From: Haloarcula vallismortis ATCC 29715 | GTDB lineage: Archaea > Halobacteriota > Halobacteria > Halobacteriales > Haloarculaceae | Direction: 5' to 3' | Assembly (NCBI RefSeq): GCF_000337775.1 | Contig: NZ_AOLQ01000015.1 | Location: 1-64,000, forward strand | DNA: 64,000 bases | In this document: piece by piece, positions 51,274-63,464 of the stretch | Numbering within the stretch: the stretch's first letter is position 1 | How the letters are laid out: each line of letters starts with the position of its first letter | The notes under the pieces: generated by a model | Told to the model about the DNA's origin: nothing | Database searches by the model: none | Seen by the model: only the letters and a program-made list of their open reading frames with translations | Position numbers and translations under genes: made by a program

Positions 51274-52074
51274 CTATCTGCTACAGGCAGCCGCAGACTC
51301 TAAATTAACTTCGATGACGTTTGCTGCCTCCATCACTATCTGAGGAAGGTCACTCTTGAAGGACTCACCAGAAAGCCGCATTTTTGGTGCGGTTACACTG
51401 ATCGCACCACAAACTGTCCCATCAACGTCCTGTATCGGGGCACCTACAGACCGCATACCACGAATCTCCTCCTCATTGTTTACCGCGTATCCCTTGCTTC
51501 GGATTTCTGCAAGCTCCTCACGCAGTTCACTTGGAGTAGTAATCGTTTTGTCTGTCTGCTGAACGAGTTCCTCAGTGGCCAGTATGTCAGTGACTCGGTT
51601 TTCATCAAAATGTGCCAGCAGCGCTTTTCCTGTCGCAGTACAGTGGAGATACTGTGGCGCCTCTCTGGTCCGCCGTTGGTAATCCATTGCTACCGTTTTC
51701 CCCCCATTATACTCGTACAGCGTTACCTCCCTGTTCCGGTACGCGACTGTGAGATGGACCCATTCGTTCGTCTCCTCGGCTAAACGCTCTACCTCTTCCT
51801 TACCGATTTGATAGAGATCGACCCGATTCCGGACACTTTCACCGAGTGGTACGAACCGCACCCCCAACCGATATGTGCTGTCTGACTTCTCGATGAGCCC
51901 TTCTGCATTAAGTGTCTGCAGATATGTATGCAGTGTACTTTTCGCAACATTCACCTCGTCACAGAGGTCTGCAAGTGTCACTTCAGACTGTGACTGAATC
52001 TCGTGCAGGATTTCGCTCGCAGTCTGAATCGACTTAATCTGTCGGGAGGAGGTCGGCGACTCGCGTTCAGTCAT
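51274..52074 (-). CDS. IclR family transcriptional regulator
   Basis: A 266-residue protein. The N-terminal winged helix (IQTASEILHEIQSQSEVTLA, LCDEVNVAKSTLHTYLQTLN, GLIEKSDSTYRLGVRFVPLG) and the C-terminal effector-binding domain (LHCTATGKALLAHFDENRVT, YAVNNEEEIRGMRSVGAPIQ, DVDGTVCGAISVTAPKMRLS) are complete. IclR proteins sense small metabolites. The gene diverges from the NhaC-type antiporter across about 360 bases, so that gene is a likely target. Confidence 0.87.
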   Translation of the reverse strand: MTERESPTSSRQIKSIQTASEILHEIQSQSEVTLADLCDEVNVAKSTLHTYLQTLNAEGLIEKSDSTYRLGVRFVPLGESVRNRVDLYQIGKEEVERLAEETNEWVHLTVAYRNREVTLYEYNGGKTVAMDYQRRTREAPQYLHCTATGKALLAHFDENRVTDILATEELVQQTDKTITTPSELREELAEIRSKGYAVNNEEEIRGMRSVGAPIQDVDGTVCGAISVTAPKMRLSGESFKSDLPQIVMEAANVIEVNLESAAACSR

Positions 52075-52431
52075 ATGCTGAGTTTGTTTATCGCGGTTAT
52101 ATGATTTTGGTATATCGAACGGTCAGGCTGGTTGTCCGCGCTTTGCCTTACCACACCGGAGTCCGACCAGTCTGACTTGCTTCAGTAAACCGCAGTTTAC
52201 AGTAAATATGGACTCCCCTGATTTGGCCTGCTCTCCCTGCATCTCTCCATGAACTTTTATTAATGATGCTGTCCTTGAGGCAAACGACATGCGCAGGTGC
52301 CACAGTCGCTGTAGGCGACAAACCAGCCGTACAGCACATAAGAAGCCGATTCAAAGCTCACCAGTCGGAAACTCTGTGTGTACAAATACACCGGTGGGAC
52401 ACGGGAAACAGACGTAATCGAGTCGATAAGA
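52075..52431. promoter_or_regulatory. Divergent regulatory region between iclR-type and nhaC genes
   Basis: About 357 bases with two outward promoters. An AT-rich run (GGTTATATGATTTTGG) lies near 52097-52112, close to the regulator start. I see no clear operator palindrome. Confidence 0.35.
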
Positions 52432-53898
52432 ATGAGCTCCGAATTTGACATCAAACTGTACGACGATATTGATCCCGAAAACCGTCCCTCTCTGGGCGAG
52501 GCGCTGATACCGATTATTGGGATGCTAACCGCACTGGGCATAGGTATCGGAATATATGGGCTTGACCCGCAGTTCCCACTCCTCTGGGGCATTGCATTCA
52601 CCGGGTTGTTCAGTTACTACCGGTTCGACATCTCTTGGGACGAGATGTATTCCGGGATTACACATACGTTGCTAATGGGCATTCAAGTCGTGTTCATCCT
52701 GTTTATCGTCTATGCTCTCATCTCGACTTGGATACAGGCCGGAACGATTCCGACGCTCATGTACTATGGGCTTGACCTGCTGCACCCGATAGTGTTTCTG
52801 CCACTCACTGCGATTATTACTGCGGTGATAACGTTCGCTATCGGGTCATCGTGGACCGCAGCAGGGACACTCGGTGTTGCCTTCATCGGCATCGGTTCCG
52901 GACTTGGACTCCCTGAACCGATGACCGCGGGCGCAATTCTCACAGGTGCATATACTGGAGACAAACAGTCGCCACTCTCGGACACAACAAACCTCGCTTC
53001 GGCGGTGACAAACACCGACCTCTACGATCACATTAATGCGATGCGTGCAGGCACTTTCCTCGCCTTCTTCATTGGTGTTATACTGTACGCTGGCCTCGGG
53101 ATACGTGCGTCGGGAGCCATTCCTGCGGACCGGATCGCCGAAATACAGACAGCGCTCACGGGGTCGTTCACGATCTCCCCGCTCGCTTTCTTGCCGCTTC
53201 TCGTCACATTTGGGCTGGCGATATACGGTATCTCTGCGATTCCAGCCCTCGGTGCTGGTGTCTTCGCCGGCGCAATAACGTCGGCTGTCCTTCAGGGGAA
53301 CTCGTTCACGTCGGTCTGGACCGTCGCACAAAGCGGAACAAGTCCGGAAACTGGAATGGAGCTCGTGAATGGACTCCTCTCAAGCGGTGGCATGGTTGGC
53401 GGCGCGTGGGCTGTAACAATTGCGATCGCCGCCCTCTCCCTAGGAGGCTTGTTCGAGTGCACCGGGATTATCGCTGTCCTAGCACATCATCTGGGCCAAC
53501 TCAGCAAAAGCGTCGGCAGCCTCACCGGCATCACGGTTCTGTCATCCGTCTCGATGAATGTCCTTGCGGCAGAGCAGTACATCAGTATCGTCGTTCCCGG
53601 TGTGACGCTCGGGAGTCTCTACGAGGAGAAGGGACTCAAGACGGAAAATCTCTCCCGGGCGATTGAGTCTTCCGGCACCGTCACCAGTGCGCTTATTCCG
53701 TGGAATAGCGGCGCGGTGTTCATGGCTGGTACGCTTGGGGTCAGTACGTTCCAGTACGCCCCTTACTACTTTCTGGGCTTCCTTTCGCCGCTTATCCTCA
53801 TTCTCATGGGAGTTACCGGCTGGCAAATCACGTATACCGAGACCGAGGCCGATAGCCAGACACCGAGCAATATGGCTGCGCCGGCGGATAGTGACTGA
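52432..53898 (+). CDS. nhaC: NhaC family Na+/H+ antiporter
   Basis: A 488-residue membrane protein with about 11-12 hydrophobic segments. ALIPIIGMLTALGIGIGIYG, IITAVITFAIGSSWTAAGTL, and PMTAGAILTGAYTGDKQSPL, SDTTNLASAV are typical of NhaC: the GDK.SPLSDTT loop is a family signature. SMNVLAAEQYISIVVPGVTL and ESSGTVTSALIPWNSGAVFM follow in the second half. The family exchanges Na+ for H+, but several members exchange malate and lactate, so substrate remains open. I start at MSSEFDIKLYDD; an ATG 54 bases upstream is less likely. The divergent IclR gene suggests metabolite control. Confidence 0.88.
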   Translation: MSSEFDIKLYDDIDPENRPSLGEALIPIIGMLTALGIGIGIYGLDPQFPLLWGIAFTGLFSYYRFDISWDEMYSGITHTLLMGIQVVFILFIVYALISTWIQAGTIPTLMYYGLDLLHPIVFLPLTAIITAVITFAIGSSWTAAGTLGVAFIGIGSGLGLPEPMTAGAILTGAYTGDKQSPLSDTTNLASAVTNTDLYDHINAMRAGTFLAFFIGVILYAGLGIRASGAIPADRIAEIQTALTGSFTISPLAFLPLLVTFGLAIYGISAIPALGAGVFAGAITSAVLQGNSFTSVWTVAQSGTSPETGMELVNGLLSSGGMVGGAWAVTIAIAALSLGGLFECTGIIAVLAHHLGQLSKSVGSLTGITVLSSVSMNVLAAEQYISIVVPGVTLGSLYEEKGLKTENLSRAIESSGTVTSALIPWNSGAVFMAGTLGVSTFQYAPYYFLGFLSPLILILMGVTGWQITYTETEADSQTPSNMAAPADSD

Positions 53899-56547: not shown

Positions 56548-58173
56548 TCAGTCGTCTACCTTTCCGTCGCGTCGGTCACGCTCCCTGGCTTCCGGGTCCC
56601 GCCCTGCCGGCTCACCGTGCCCGCCGCCACCGGGTGTTCGGACGGAGACGGTCGACCCGGCCGCGACATCAACAGAGGTCTTCGCTGGGACCGGCTCGCC
56701 GTCGACGAGATTCTCCCCTGTCGCGCCGTCTTCGCCGCCGTCGATTCCTGCAGGGGCCGTCCGCCGACGCTCCGTCAGCAGTGATACGGTGGCGTCGGTC
56801 TCAACGGTGACAGTGCGTTCGATTCCCAGTCCCCCGCGGTACCGGCCGTCGCCACCGCTCGACGGCCGCAGCGCGTACCGCTCGACCCGGAGCGGATACT
56901 CGGTCTCCATCGCTTCGACGGGCGTGTTGAGCGTGTTCGTCATGCCGACCTGCACGCCATCCATCCCGTCTTTCCCGGGCCGGGCTCCGAATCCGCCGCC
57001 GATTGTTTCGTAGTAGGTAAACTCCCCGGCTCGATCGCCGATGATGAGGTTGTTCATAGTTCCCTGTCCACCGGCAGGAACCTTACTTGGGGCCGCCTCT
57101 GCGAGTGCCGCCAGCGTGACGTCCATGACGCGCTGGCTCGTCTCGACGTTGCCACCGACGACCGCAGCCGGCGGGTTCGGGTTGAGTACCGACCCCTCAG
57201 GTGCGGACACGGACACCGGCTCGTAACAGCCGTGGTTCGGCGGAATCTCCGGGTCGGTGATCGCTCGAACGACGAAGTAGACCGCGCTCTTTGCGACTGA
57301 AAGCGGCGCGTTCAGGTTGCCCGCCACCTGGTCGGCGGTCCCGGCGAAGTCGACAGCTATCGAGGCCCCATCGATGGTGACGGCCACCTCGACTGGGATG
57401 TCGTCGTCGGTCACGCCGTCGCCTTCGAGGATATCCTGCGCCCGATACGCTCCGTCCGGGAGCGAATCGAGTTCAGCTTCGACCCGCTCACGGGAGTACT
57501 CGATGACGGCACCGAACGCATCGAGCAGGGTCGAGCCGTGTTCTTCGAGAAGTTCACCGATGCGCTCCTCAGCCCGTCCGTTTGCGGCGCGCTGGGCCCG
57601 GAGGTCCGCCTCACGCTCGTCTGGTGTCCGGACGTTGGCACGGATAAGGTCGTGGACCGCCTCGTTGGGCTCGCCGCCGTCGACGAGCCGAACAGCAGGC
57701 AGACGGAGCCCTTCCTCGTAAATCTCCTGTGCGCCCGGTGGCATGCTTCCCGGCGAACTCCCGCCAACGTCGGCGTGATGGGCGCGCGAGACGGCGTACC
57801 CAATCACCTCGTCGTTCGGCGCGATGGTCGAAACGAGCGTGATGTCCGGGAGGTGTGTTCCGCCGGCGAACGGGTCGTTAACGACGAACACGTCACCCGG
57901 TTTCGGGTCCTTCTGGAGGACAATATCTACCGCGTCGGGCATCGCGCCGAGGTGGACCGGGATGTGTTCCGCCTGTGCAATCATGCGACCAGACGCGTCG
58001 AAAAGCGCCGTCGAGCAGTCCTGGCGTTCCTTGATGTTCGGGGAGTACGCCCCGCGAATGAGCACGTGGCCCATCTCGGCTGCAACGCTCTCAAGCTGGT
58101 TTCTGAGGATTTCAAGCGTTACGGGGTCGATCGAATCCTGTCTGTCACCCGGTGTCATGGCTTCGTCGTTCAT
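56548..58173 (-). CDS. hyuB: Hydantoinase B/oxoprolinase family subunit
   Basis: A 541-residue protein. [80 protein letters not shown] and [20 protein letters not shown] are typical. The C-terminus has [20 protein letters not shown]. HyuB pairs with HyuA in ATP-dependent cleavage of hydantoins, 5-oxoproline and related lactams. The start codon overlaps the hyuA stop (ATGA), so the pair is coupled. An in-frame ATG four codons further in is also possible. Confidence 0.9.
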
Positions 58174-60173
58174 GTCTCGCTCACCTCCGCTGTCAGTGTG
58201 CCGTCATCGCGGACCCGCACGTTCCAGGCCGGTGGGACGACAATTGTACTCTCATCGCCCTCGATAACCGCGGGGCCGTCGATTCTCTCCCGTGGTGGCA
58301 GCCGCGCCCGCTCGTAGACCGGCGTTTCGCGGACCTCGGCACCGAACACCGCCTCCCGAGATTCCTTCTGTGGGTCACCCTCGGCGGCGTACTCAACCGG
58401 TGGGGCGCTCCGTTCGACGGTCGTCGTCACGCGACAGTTCACCAGCTCGACGGACTCGTCCGCTCGATACCCGTACGCGGTCTCATGCGCTGTGGCGAAC
58501 CGCTCGCGGGCGTTTGCGGTGTCGAACGGTCGGTCGATGTCCACAGTAAGTTCGAAACTCTGACCGGCGTACCGGAGGTCGGCGGAGCAACGTACTGTTG
58601 CCGCCTCGCGGTCGCTGACCTCTGCCAGCAGTTCCTCGGCCAGCTCATCGTAGACTGTGTCGACATCCTGGGGGTCGACCGCGTCAAGCGGGCGCTGGTA
58701 CGTCCGTACGGCGTCGCGCTTCTCGTCGGCCGCGAGCAGGCCGTATGCCGACAGCACGCCAGAAGCGCGCGGAATTACCACCCGGTCGATATCGAGGCTG
58801 TCCGCGATTGCGGCCGCGTGCATCGGTCCGGCACCTCCGAACGCGGCAAGCCCGAATTTCCGAGGGTCGTACCCGCGCTCGACGGTCACAGAACGGATTG
58901 CCCGGGTCATGTTCGCATTGGCGACGCGGTAGACGCCACGAGCGGCCTCGCGGGGACCATCGAGACCCGCCTCGTCGGCAAGGTCTGCAAGCGCGTCGTA
59001 TGCTGCGTCTTCATCGAGCGATAGTTCCCCACCTAAACTGGTGCTTGCGCCGATATAGCCCAGCACGAGGTTCGCGTCGGTCACTGTCGGCTCAGTCCCG
59101 CCTTTCCCATAGCAGGCAGGACCGGGGTTTGCTCCGGCGGAGCGCGGGCCGATGCGGAGTGCGCCCCCGGCGTCAACCCAGGCAATGGATCCGCCACCTG
59201 CGCCGACTGTTTCGACGTCGACCATCGGTGTCTTGATCGGCCGTTCGTTGATGACGCCCGCCGTCGTCCGCTCGGCTTCCCCGTCGCGAACGAGGCTCAC
59301 GTCGCTAGAGGTCCCGCCCATATCGAACGTGACCAGCCCGTCATGTTCGTCGGAGTCGTCGGCCGCCATCGAACCGGCCCCGACGACGCCGGCGGCAGGA
59401 CCCGAGAGGACCGTCGTAACAGCGTTCCGCCTGACGGTGTCTGCGTCGGTGATGCCGCCGTTTGCCTGCATAATCCGGGGCTGTGGGACCCCGAGTTCCC
59501 GCGCCCGGTCGGTGAGGTGACTGATGTAGTGGTCAATCGCCGGCCGCACGTACGCGTCGACGACGGTCGTCGACGTCCGCTCGTACTCGCGGAACTCGGC
59601 GAGGACTTCGTGTGAGGCTGAGACGGGCACGTCGAGTTCGTCCCGCAGGATGTCTGCGACGCGTGTTTCGTTTTCTGGGTGGGCGTACGCGTGCAAGAGC
59701 GAGACGGCGACAGATTCGACATCCATCTCGTGTAACTGTGCGGCGATCGCCCGGACTTCGTCCTCGTCGACGGACTGTTCGATACCGTCAGTGGTCGTCC
59801 GTTCGGAGACTTCAAATCGCCGGCGTCTGGGCACCAGCGGTGTCGGCTTTTCGGCGGACAGGTCGTACAGCGACGGACGATCCTGCCGGCCGATTTCCAG
59901 CACGTCTCGGAACCCTTCGGTCGTGACGAGCGCGGTCTTTGCGCCGTCCTCTTCGAGGAGCGCGTTGACCGAGACGGTCATTGCGTGGGAGAACTCGCTG
60001 ACGGTCTCCGGGTCGATGCCGGCCTCCGCACACGCTTTCTCGATGCCGGCGATGACGCCCTCGCTCTGGTCCTCAGTGCTCGGGACTTTCGCAGTCACGA
60101 GTTTGCCGTCGAGCGACAGCGTCACGTCGGTGAAGGTTCCACCGACGTCGACACCGATCCGCCGGCCGCCCAT
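58170..60173 (-). CDS. hyuA: Hydantoinase A/oxoprolinase family subunit
   Basis: A 667-residue protein. The ASKHA-type ATP-binding start IGVDVGGTFTDVTLSLDG is clear. FSHAMTVSVNALLEEDGAKT, LVTTEGFRDVLEIGRQDRPS, PRIMQANGGITDADTVRRNA, LVTFDMGGTSSDVSLVRDGE, VGAGGGSIAWVDAGGALRIG and AAFGGAGPMHAAAIADSLDI are hallmark segments. The start codon follows the transporter stop directly (TAG then ATG). With hyuB it forms an ATP-dependent amidohydrolase. Substrate may be a hydantoin or 5-oxoproline. Confidence 0.92.
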   Translation of the reverse strand: MGGRRIGVDVGGTFTDVTLSLDGKLVTAKVPSTEDQSEGVIAGIEKACAEAGIDPETVSEFSHAMTVSVNALLEEDGAKTALVTTEGFRDVLEIGRQDRPSLYDLSAEKPTPLVPRRRRFEVSERTTTDGIEQSVDEDEVRAIAAQLHEMDVESVAVSLLHAYAHPENETRVADILRDELDVPVSASHEVLAEFREYERTSTTVVDAYVRPAIDHYISHLTDRARELGVPQPRIMQANGGITDADTVRRNAVTTVLSGPAAGVVGAGSMAADDSDEHDGLVTFDMGGTSSDVSLVRDGEAERTTAGVINERPIKTPMVDVETVGAGGGSIAWVDAGGALRIGPRSAGANPGPACYGKGGTEPTVTDANLVLGYIGASTSLGGELSLDEDAAYDALADLADEAGLDGPREAARGVYRVANANMTRAIRSVTVERGYDPRKFGLAAFGGAGPMHAAAIADSLDIDRVVIPRASGVLSAYGLLAADEKRDAVRTYQRPLDAVDPQDVDTVYDELAEELLAEVSDREAATVRCSADLRYAGQSFELTVDIDRPFDTANARERFATAHETAYGYRADESVELVNCRVTTTVERSAPPVEYAAEGDPQKESREAVFGAEVRETPVYERARLPPRERIDGPAVIEGDESTIVVPPAWNVRVRDDGTLTAEVSET

Positions 60174-61382
60174 CTACAGCACCCCCGCGACGCTGAGCAG
60201 CGTCCGAACTCCGAGCCACACGACGATGAGCGTCACGATAGCGCCGAGGGCATTCGCTACTGACCCGTTCGTGTACTCACCGAGGAGCTCACGCTGGTTC
60301 ATCGCGTATATCAAGAACACCGCGACGATCGGCAATAAAATCCCGTTGACGACCTGTGCGAACACGATGATCTGGACGGGACTGCCGCCCAGCAACACCG
60401 AGAGAATCCCGACCCCGAGGATGGTCCCCCAGACAGCACGGAACTGTGTGCTTTGCATGTCCGAATCCCAGCCCAGTGCACCCGTGGTCGCCCACGCGCC
60501 CGCGAGCGGGGCAGTCGTCGCGCTCGTGAACCCGGCGGCGAAGATGCCGATGCTGAAAAACAGTTCGGCGTACGGACCCGCGATGGGTCGCAGCTGTTCG
60601 GCCATCCGGCCGATATCGCTGATTTGCGTGCCCGGCTCGAAGGCCGCGGCCGCGGTCACCATAATCGTGATTGTGATCACGCCGCCGACGACGATTGACA
60701 GCACCGTGTCGATGCGTGAGTGGCCGATATCCTCTGGCCCGCTCCACCGCTCCTGAACGTTACTCGCGTGCAGGAACAGGTTGTACCCGACGATGGTCGT
60801 TCCGACGAGGCCGGTGATGAGGTACAGCGACCCCGAGGGGATTCCGGGGACGAACCCCATCGCAATCGCACCCGGGTCGGGACCGATGAGAATTGCCGAC
60901 GCAACGAACGAGAATGCCATCACGGCGACCAGCCCAATGAGCGCTCGCTCGATCAGCTTGTAGCGCCCAGTGTAGAGCAGGAGGCCGGCGACGAGTCCCA
61001 TCACGACGCCCCACACCGTCGAATCGATACCCGTAATGGTCGCGAGCCCTGCGGCACCGCCGAGGATATTCCCGGCTTCGTAGGCAGCAGTCCCAACGCC
61101 GATCGCGCCGACAACAAGGAATATACTCAGGTACTCGACGATTTGATTGTCGAACCGCTCTCGAAGCGCTTCGCCGAGTCCCTCCCCAGAGACAAGGCCC
61201 AGCCGCGCACTCATCTCTTGGAGAACAATCGTTGCAACGATCGAGAAAACCATCGTCCACAGGAGTGCGTAGCCGAACTCCGCCCCGGTGACGCTCGCAG
61301 TCGTGACCGTGCCTGGGCCGATGAACGCGGCGGCGACCATCGCTCCCGGGCCGACGGCTTTGAGTCGTTTTGTAATGCTCAT
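60174..61382 (-). CDS. Nramp-like transporter lacking canonical metal-binding residues
   Basis: A 402-residue membrane protein with about 11 helices of the Nramp (LeuT-like) fold. In metal-transporting Nramp proteins helix 1 has DPGN; here it is GPGT at residues 22-25 (AAFIGPGTVTTASVTGAEFG). Helix 6 normally has MPH; here it reads TTIVGYNLFLHAS, with Val198-Gly199-Tyr200 in its place. Both metal ligands are thus replaced. The gene is first in an operon with hyuA and hyuB, with no spacer. A role in importing the substrate of HyuAB is a plausible inference; an Nramp-type protein also sits with oxoprolinase genes in Bacillus (YcsG), as I recall. Confidence 0.85.
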   Translation of the reverse strand: MSITKRLKAVGPGAMVAAAFIGPGTVTTASVTGAEFGYALLWTMVFSIVATIVLQEMSARLGLVSGEGLGEALRERFDNQIVEYLSIFLVVGAIGVGTAAYEAGNILGGAAGLATITGIDSTVWGVVMGLVAGLLLYTGRYKLIERALIGLVAVMAFSFVASAILIGPDPGAIAMGFVPGIPSGSLYLITGLVGTTIVGYNLFLHASNVQERWSGPEDIGHSRIDTVLSIVVGGVITITIMVTAAAAFEPGTQISDIGRMAEQLRPIAGPYAELFFSIGIFAAGFTSATTAPLAGAWATTGALGWDSDMQSTQFRAVWGTILGVGILSVLLGGSPVQIIVFAQVVNGILLPIVAVFLIYAMNQRELLGEYTNGSVANALGAIVTLIVVWLGVRTLLSVAGVL

Positions 61383-61562: not shown

Positions 61563-62108
61563 TCACGGTTCCCGTGTTCTCAAAAGTACCTTCGAAACAC
61601 TCTCTTCGATTTCAATTTCGAACGGGAGGTCAGTAATGCTACCGCGGATGAATCGGATCATCAACCATCGGACCGACTCGGATGGGAACACCACGTGGAA
61701 ACTCCCCTTTTCGTCGCGTCGGACAGTCAGGAATCCACACAGTGAGAGCCAGTCGAGCACGTCTTCGAGTGAATCAAATCGTTCGGCATACTCTTGAGCG
61801 TGGTACTGCGCCACCTGATCGATCATTTCGAGCACTTCCTGGTCACGTGCATCTGGGTCGGTAAACTGGCTCAGGAGTGCATGAAGGAGGTCGATGTCCA
61901 GCAGGACGTGCTCGCCTGTCGAGAGCATCTCGTAGTACGTCTGAAGGTGATCGCTGTCACTCGCATGGGCCGAGTCGAAGTTTGCCGCGTAGAACGCGAT
62001 TGCTTCGCGGATCAGTTGGCTTTGACTCTCCCCAGTTCGGTCGGTCAGCCCCTCTAACGTCTCCTTTGTCTCCTCGTCGAGAGAGACGGTGACGCGGTCG
62101 GTTGGCAT
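61563..62108 (-). CDS. Ribbon-helix-helix transcriptional regulator
   Basis: A 181-residue protein. The N-terminus is a clear RHH domain: DRVTVSLDEETKETLEGLTD, RTGESQSQLIREAIAFYAAN. The rest (about 130 residues) is mixed alpha/beta with HLQTYYEMLSTGEHVLLDID and EKGSFHVVFPSESVRWLMIR. It may sense a ligand or partner, but I do not recognise a domain. I start at MPTDRVTVS, since the strand must begin there; an ATG 15 bases upstream is less likely. It lies upstream of the hydantoinase operon on the same strand, 180 bases away, and could regulate it. Confidence 0.8.
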   Translation of the reverse strand: MPTDRVTVSLDEETKETLEGLTDRTGESQSQLIREAIAFYAANFDSAHASDSDHLQTYYEMLSTGEHVLLDIDLLHALLSQFTDPDARDQEVLEMIDQVAQYHAQEYAERFDSLEDVLDWLSLCGFLTVRRDEKGSFHVVFPSESVRWLMIRFIRGSITDLPFEIEIEESVSKVLLRTREP

Positions 62109-62210
62109 AGTGGCCCTCGTCACTGGATGGCCTTAATATCGTGTCGTTTGGTGACAGAGACCTCTCAGACCGCAGCAAGACCGGCACGTCTGGACGGCAT
62201 CCGGAACCAG

Positions 62211-63464
62211 TTACGGCCAGGTACCGCTCTGCTTGCCGGCGTTCATGACCCGCTGGAGTGCAACGACGTATGCAGCGGTTCGGAGCGACGGGAGGTTTCG
62301 CCCCTCGTACGCATCGATGAGGTTCCCGAACTGCTCGACGATAATTGAATCCAGTTCCTCGTTGACGCGTTCTCCGGACCAGTAGAAGCGCTGCCTGTTC
62401 TGGACCCATTCGAAGTAGGACACGATGACGCCGCCCGCGTTCGCGAGGATATCCGGAACGACCAGCGTCTCGCGGTCACTGAGAATATCGTCCGCGGTGG
62501 GAGTAATCGGGCCGTTTGCAGCCTCTGAGATGACATCAGCGGAGATCTCATGCGCCAGCGACTCGCCGATGGCGTTTTCGAGTGCGGCCGGAATCAGCAG
62601 GTCGATATCGAGCGTGAGCAGCTCCTCGTTGGTGAGCTCTCCCTCGGCCTCCGGATAGCCGACGACGCTCCCGGTTTCGCGTTTGTAGTCCTTGACTGCG
62701 ATGGGGTCGAACGACGCGTCGCTGTATATCGCCCCGCTCGAATCGGAGACAGCGACGACGTTGGCACCCATCTCGTAGATGAGTTTCGCCGCGATCCAGC
62801 CGGCGTTCCCGTAGCCCTGAACCGCGACCGTCGCGCCTTCGAGGTCCTTATCGAGATACTCGAAGGCTTCACGCGCCGCGACGACCGTCGACCGCCCGGT
62901 CGCTTCGACGCGGCCTTCGCTGCCGCCGCTTGCGAGGTCCTTTCCGGTTATCACGCCGGGTTCGGTCGTGTTTTCGAGTGTCTCGTAGGTGTCCTTGATC
63001 CAGTTCATCTCGCGCTGGCCTGTGTTGACATCGGGCGCGGGCACGTCGCGGTCGGCACCTATCAGCGGCGTCAGTTCCTTCGCAAACGAGCGCGTGACCC
63101 GTTCCAGTTCACTCTCCGAATAGTTACTCGGGTCGATGACGATGCCGCCTTTCCCCCCGCCCAGTGGGATATCGCTCGTCGCCGTCTTGTAAACCATCCA
63201 GCCGGAGAGCGCCTTGACCTCGTCGCGGTCGACCTCCGGGTGATAGCGGATGCCGCCTTTGTAGGGGCCGCGGTCACCGTTGAACTGTGACCGGTACGCA
63301 CGGAACACCTCGACCGACCCGTCGTCCATCTCGACAGACAGGTTCGTTTCAAGTATCCGCTCGGGCGCTTTCAGCCGCTCCAGTTGTCCTTCTGAGATGT
63401 CCAGGTGCTGTGCTGCGGAATCGATCTGTGTCCGCAGGCTCTGGTACGGATTTACATCAGACAT
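62211..63464 (-). CDS. gdhB: Glutamate dehydrogenase
   Basis: A 417-residue enzyme of the hexameric GDH type. [40 protein letters not shown] with the catalytic Lys and glycine-rich loop, [20 protein letters not shown] and [20 protein letters not shown] are diagnostic. The nucleotide loop is [19 protein letters not shown], and [16 protein letters not shown] is typical of the end. It interconverts glutamate with 2-oxoglutarate and ammonia. Haloarchaea have several GDH paralogs; the coenzyme cannot be read with certainty. An inverted repeat lies 55-76 bases upstream of the start. Confidence 0.93.

Follow-up and report, generated by a model that had tools for sequence, protein, structure and literature searches.

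The window, a stretch of 64,000 nucleotides from Haloarcula vallismortis ATCC 29715, includes the gene for a protein whose relatives are annotated as "Nramp family divalent metal transporter". This gene precedes the two genes of a hydantoinase/oxoprolinase-family enzyme, and the residues typical of the metal site of Nramp importers are absent from its product. The locus raises the question of what such a carrier transports, and whether its gene belongs with those of the enzyme.

Genes of the locus

The features of the locus are listed in Table 1. On the minus strand the order of transcription is RHH protein, Nramp-like carrier, HyuA and HyuB. A preliminary description of this DNA had placed the carrier, HyuA and HyuB correctly, and had stated that the carrier stop codon abuts the start of hyuA and that hyuA overlaps hyuB. 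Both junctions were confirmed in the sequence, the former reading GTG CTG TAG ATG GGC and the latter being a common ATGA. The gene for the RHH protein is a conserved gene located outside the coordinates of that description. Approximately 140 residues of the C-terminal part of this protein are conserved without a Pfam match and possibly form an effector-binding domain.

Table 1. Features of the carrier-hyuA-hyuB locus, with positions in the window
Feature	Position	Strand	Basis
RHH (CopG-type) protein, probable local regulator, upstream of the carrier	61563..62123	-	profile search; conserved neighbour
Nramp-like (PF01566) carrier, 402 aa	60174..61382	-	profile search and alignment to solved structures
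GPGT, codons 22-25, TM1, at the DPGN position	61308..61319	-	structure alignment; 66/66 homologues
YEAGN, codons 101-105, TM3, with orphan-outgroup residues Y and N	61068..61082	-	comparison with published sites
TTIVGY, codons 195-200, TM6, at the (A)TxMPH position	60783..60800	-	alignment; Tyr in 66/66 homologues
AQVVNG, codons 342-347, TM10; A, N and G are orphan-outgroup residues	60342..60359	-	A-N-G in 66/66
Carrier TAG followed by hyuA ATG, zero spacer	60171..60176	-	junction sequence
HyuA, ATP-binding subunit of hydantoinase/oxoprolinase-family enzyme, 667 aa	58170..60173	-	Pfam Hydantoinase_A and its N- and C-terminal domains
hyuA/hyuB overlap, ATGA	58170..58173	-	sequence
HyuB, metal-site subunit, 541 aa	56548..58173	-	Hydantoinase_B, 672 bits, 519/519 positions

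The carrier matches PF01566 with 346.6 bits (cut-off 29.8) over profile positions 1–356 of 357 and aligns full length with solved Nramp structures, which suggests, on profile and alignment grounds, that the Nramp fold is retained. The AlphaFold model, computed with 11 orthologues as input, presented a mean pLDDT of 37.5, too low for a statement on the fold. The carrier scores below the curated models for MntH (194 bits, cut-off 430) and for the nramp subfamily (110 bits, cut-off 272.5), and the generic NF037982 (cut-off 50) is the only one of these NCBI-type cut-offs that it passes.

In HyuB, residues D52, H107, D110 and H132 match the D-H-D-H metal site of CapB, which is essential in caprolactamase (PMC8453981), and in HyuA the nucleotide motifs (GxxPGP and the Asp motifs) are intact. 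Since the metal site is kept, the HyuAB enzyme is probably active. The two-subunit plan and these motifs are common to the window HyuAB, N-methylhydantoinase, caprolactamase and the hyuABC products of Pseudomonas NS671. The window proteins differ from these enzymes in that they reach 531 and 248 bits where the NCBIfam models for caprolactamase require 1000 each, in a cassette without a carbamoylase gene, and in having a predicted substrate. They also fall below the curated equivalog cut-off for acetophenone carboxylase.

The glutamate dehydrogenase gene at 62211-63464 was considered as a further member of the cassette and rejected, since it is near the cassette in part of Haloarcula only. Elsewhere in the window, the gene at 52378-53898 (plus strand) encodes a transporter that scores above the NCBIfam cut-off for the ArcD arginine/ornithine antiporter (806.6 bits against 650), and a gene for an IclR-type regulator is located near it (51274-52074, minus strand).

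Metal-ligand positions and place in PF01566

In the alignment with solved Nramps, IGPGT of the carrier falls on IDPGN and VGY falls on MPH, which upholds the reading of both motifs in the preliminary description. The GPGT of TM1 is present in all 66 distinct haloarchaeal homologues. The Tyr of TM6 is likewise present in 66/66, preceded by Gly in 64 of them, within a TM6 motif that is TTVVGYN, TTIVGYN or closely similar to these, and A-N-G of TM10 is also invariant. Asp, Asn, Met and His are thus replaced clade-wide by Gly, Thr, Val and Tyr, and the invariance of GPGT and Tyr rules out both chance and a sequencing slip. The canonical SLC11/Nramp metal importers, such as MntH and DMT1, share with the window carrier the PF01566 match and the structural alignment; DPGN and MPH are theirs, whereas the window carrier has neither and scores far under the MntH and nramp cut-offs.

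An unrooted tree, inferred by maximum likelihood from 44 PF01566 proteins, recovered the canonical SLC11 proteins (ultrafast bootstrap/SH-aLRT 100/99), the NRMT-like proteins (100/100) and the pxpA-type Nramps (100/100) as groups. The clade of the window carrier received 90/92, and 89/95 together with two bacterial GPGT proteins.

Cellier (2022, 2023) divided PF01566 into Slc11, NRMT and an "orphan" outgroup, which is without the features that transport of Mn and protons requires (PMC9606685, PMC10606218). By alignment, the window carrier has the outgroup residue at all ten sites outside TM1 that are named in the accessible text of these sources (Y101, N105, T195, V198, Y200, T237, A342, N346, G347 and G391). 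From these diagnostic residues, as distinct from the group's own sequences, the carrier looks like a member of the orphan outgroup. The same accessible text gives neither a function nor a gene context for this group. The preliminary description had called the metal-binding motifs lost. This is probably the wrong word, as the carrier bears orphan-outgroup residues and the unrooted tree gives no direction of change. Given the match at the diagnostic sites, the ligands may never have been present in the line of the window carrier and may have been gained in Slc11.

The NRMT Mg2+ transporters belong to the same superfamily and have an altered metal site, and the EleNRMT-type structure 7qia is the second-best solved match of the carrier. 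The NRMT-like proteins in the comparison set keep NDAG and TxxA/S-P-W, whereas the window carrier has GPGT and TxxV-G-Y. In terms of the motifs that define NRMT (DxxG in TM1 and TxxA/T in TM6), it is without the TM1 Asp and presents TxxV.

Other PF01566 proteins with unusual TM1 motifs were also observed. The only other member in the window genome (G000:C38:152449-153549; loci L002 and L191) has GPATI in TM1, is without DPGN and MPH, and has an E1 dehydrogenase component encoded nearby. A haloarchaeal branch (L103 and L108, also L106, L107, L109 and L111) is without the metal ligands and presents GSGS in TM1; a TauE/SafE-type permease is encoded next to the L103 member, and the L108 and L109 members are followed by genes for similar small membrane proteins. 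In a further branch (L089, L104 and L105) TM1 has GPGS or GPGG. The L089 member sits between sulfatase and heparinase genes, and these neighbours hint at yet another organic substrate.

Conservation of the cassette among haloarchaea

Neighbouring genes were tallied in 61 haloarchaeal loci, 60 of them informative for HyuA (L177 ends with its contig). In 57 of these 60 loci, which are related and not independent, HyuA is the same-strand gene directly downstream of the carrier; it is near the carrier but reversed in L092 and absent in L093 and L094. HyuB is present in 58/61 loci and the RHH gene in 55/61. The order persists though the identity of the carrier falls to about 61%, and the distances among carriers are correlated with those among HyuAs (Mantel rho 0.60; permutation p 0.001). 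The gene order of the cassette is beyond chance. Of 392 Halobacteriales genomes, 112 have a member of the carrier clade, and 34 of the 95 sampled genera are represented. Haloarcula hispanica and Haloferax mediterranei are among the species with the cassette. The preliminary description had named a missing association in other genomes as a ground for giving up its proposal, and the link with HyuAB recurs across many genera.

The association is not complete on either side. GPGT-type relatives without HyuAB are those of L093, L094 and two bacteria; these two, both plasmid-borne and neither adjoining HyuAB, are the only bacterial GPGT members found, in a search without bacterial chromosomes. HyuAB similar to the cassette type also occurs without the carrier. 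Cassette HyuAs cluster together, with three of 20 non-cassette HyuAs inside the cluster. Carrier-less haloarchaeal HyuAB were tried as a pointer to an alternative transporter and set aside, their neighbours including no consistent transporter. Cassette-less Haloarcula genomes (L213-L216) have HyuAB elsewhere, with a HyuA that is 62-65% identical, behind sulfatase-like and small membrane-protein genes and without a transporter. This pattern looks like replacement, most cassette carriers having no second HyuA.

An extra gene is present in 39 of the 61 loci, mostly right after hyuB, and its product of approximately 235 residues belongs to the Asp/Glu/hydantoin racemase superfamily (PF17645, PF01177). 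Its nearest solved relatives are maleate isomerase and then arylmalonate decarboxylase, and nearly all the products retain two cysteines that align with maleate isomerase cysteines. A search of the window genome gave no match to this gene. In L093 (6197-12214), which has the carrier without HyuAB, the racemase-superfamily gene comes directly after it, and the neighbours are creatininase-family, hydantoinase/carbamoylase-type amidase, arginase-family and Lrp-type genes.

Candidate substrates of the carrier and its enzyme

A ligand-free carrier of the Nramp family tied to a ring-opening enzyme is already known. In Corynebacterium glutamicum, PxpT is needed together with PxpABC for growth on 5-oxoproline, and plasmid-borne pxpT restores the growth of the deletion strain; metal transport by PxpT was left possible by its authors (PMC13274462). 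Its homologue YcsG, whose gene is located with those of 5-oxoprolinase, has been reported as a Mn importer (PMC10448178). Other pxpA-adjacent Nramps, through which the comparison with the window was made, have GPGF and GGTVGGY in five bacterial records, and none of the metal-site residues D, N, M and H. The Pxp clusters and the window cassette thus each combine a ligand-free PF01566 carrier with a local regulator and an enzyme that opens lactams at the expense of ATP. They differ in each part: the pxpA-adjacent Nramps have a branch of their own in the tree, are 20-23% identical to the window carrier and have GPGF/GGY in place of GPGT/VGY; PxpABC is unrelated to HyuAB; and the regulator is of the GntR type, against RHH in the window. 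Ligand-free PF01566 carriers are therefore found beside ATP-dependent lactam- or ureide-opening enzymes in two branches and with two unrelated enzymes. What is new here is the PF01566 branch with HyuAB, a pairing that was not found described in the searchable literature, where a search for Nramp with hydantoinase in archaea returned nothing. Several pxpA clusters (L087, L113, L116 and L085) also carry a gene for a "putative hydro-lyase" or for a glutamate cyclase domain, which hints at D-glutamate/5-oxo-D-proline chemistry in those operons.

We consider it fairly probable, from sequence and gene context, that the window carrier imports a small cyclic organic compound that feeds HyuAB, and not a divalent metal. 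The carrier would act as a PF01566 secondary importer, with inward direction and coupling to an ion as predicted features; HyuA would use ATP to activate the ring amide, which HyuB would then hydrolyse at the bound divalent metal. Carrier, hyuA and hyuB are presumably on one transcript, with the RHH protein as the probable local regulator. The proposal of an Nramp-derived organic carrier in the preliminary description is in this respect favoured by the recurrent HyuAB link, by the PxpT/YcsG precedent and by the ligand-free pxpA-adjacent Nramps, although its wording of the motifs as lost finds no support. Points that count against organic import are the Mn report on YcsG, the relatives without HyuAB, the HyuAB without a carrier, the need of HyuB for a divalent metal, and the fact that a canonical DPGN Nramp was looked for in the genome and not found.

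Among candidate compounds, 5-oxoproline (pyroglutamate), which would be opened to glutamate, is the most likely, as a tentative choice. PxpA gave no match in the window genome, and the cassette HyuA is the only HyuA there. A HyuA was present in 32/32 Haloarcula genomes searched, and in 14 of the 16 with the cassette, the cassette HyuA is the only one. The missing PxpA, the single HyuA and the presence of a HyuA in all 32 Haloarcula fit a housekeeping task, such as the recovery of an unavoidable metabolite. In Haloarculaceae, PxpA was found in 7 of 146 genomes and by coordinates never near an Nramp, so a PxpA-Nramp pair was rejected for this family. The HyuAB of Ti plasmids, with a HyuA about 44% identical to that of the window, has been proposed to open lactam opines (PMC6733357). 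A call between oxoprolinase and hydantoinase from a single residue was abandoned, as the residue named in the literature had no certain placement.

The second candidate is a hydantoin-like cyclic ureide (a 5-substituted hydantoin, N-methylhydantoin or a creatinine-like compound), in which case the cassette would correspond to the bacterial hyuABC-type clusters, the carrier would do the work of Mhp1, the LeuT-fold permease for hydantoins, and the racemase-superfamily protein would be a hydantoin racemase. The nearest solved enzyme to both HyuA and HyuB is one deposited as N-methylhydantoinase, the two-cysteine racemase-superfamily gene is frequent in the loci, and in L093 this gene and the carrier adjoin the creatininase-family and amidase genes. 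We regard the ureide as somewhat unlikely, since the window genome is without the racemase-superfamily gene, the cassette is without a carbamoylase, and the near-universal HyuA of Haloarcula is better suited to a housekeeping metabolite. The one good carbamoylase match of the genome was rejected as a partner of HyuAB: it adjoins xanthine-dehydrogenase-type and Bmp-type transporter genes, in an apparent purine catabolism cluster that it probably serves. It is less likely still that the carrier moves another organic solute, with HyuAB acting on its product, on an imide or on a different lactam. The neighbours of the GPGS (sulfatase/heparinase) and GSGS (TauE) branches, and the likeness of the extra gene to maleate isomerase and arylmalonate decarboxylase, would agree with such a solute, whereas the tight carrier-HyuA-HyuB order favours the substrate of HyuAB itself as cargo.

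Metal supply is conceivable because HyuB requires a divalent metal, its metal site being kept; the carrier would then move the metal by other ligands, as claimed for YcsG/MntG. Besides the YcsG report, this reading has in its favour that NRMT, a PF01566 member whose site is altered, is able to transport both Mg2+ and Mn2+ (PMC8806188), and that a search of the window genome gave no canonical Nramp with DPGN. Against this, all four ligands are replaced throughout the clade, whereas NRMT-like proteins keep the TM1 Asp; no metal regulator adjoins the carrier, whereas the DPGN Nramp of L115 adjoins mntR; and a general metal leaves the tight link to one enzyme unexplained. We therefore consider this reading very unlikely, and import of a cyclic substrate of HyuAB is retained as the preferred one.

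On a broader scale, the orphan PF01566 branch might consist of importers of small cyclic amides and ureides; taken with PxpT, ring transport could then be old in PF01566 and the Slc11 metal site a later gain, a view that we offer with some reserve. If the proposed function is true, the database label "divalent metal transporter" would be wrong for a clade that is present in over 25% of the Halobacteriales genomes sampled, and there would be a candidate function for the orphan outgroup with which Slc11 evolution is rooted. The cassette provides an independent test of the published dispute between Mn import by YcsG and 5-oxoproline uptake by PxpT. It pairs an Nramp without the ligands with an unrelated enzyme for ring opening, in genetically tractable archaea, and transport of organic rings by the PF01566 scaffold can be decided from it.
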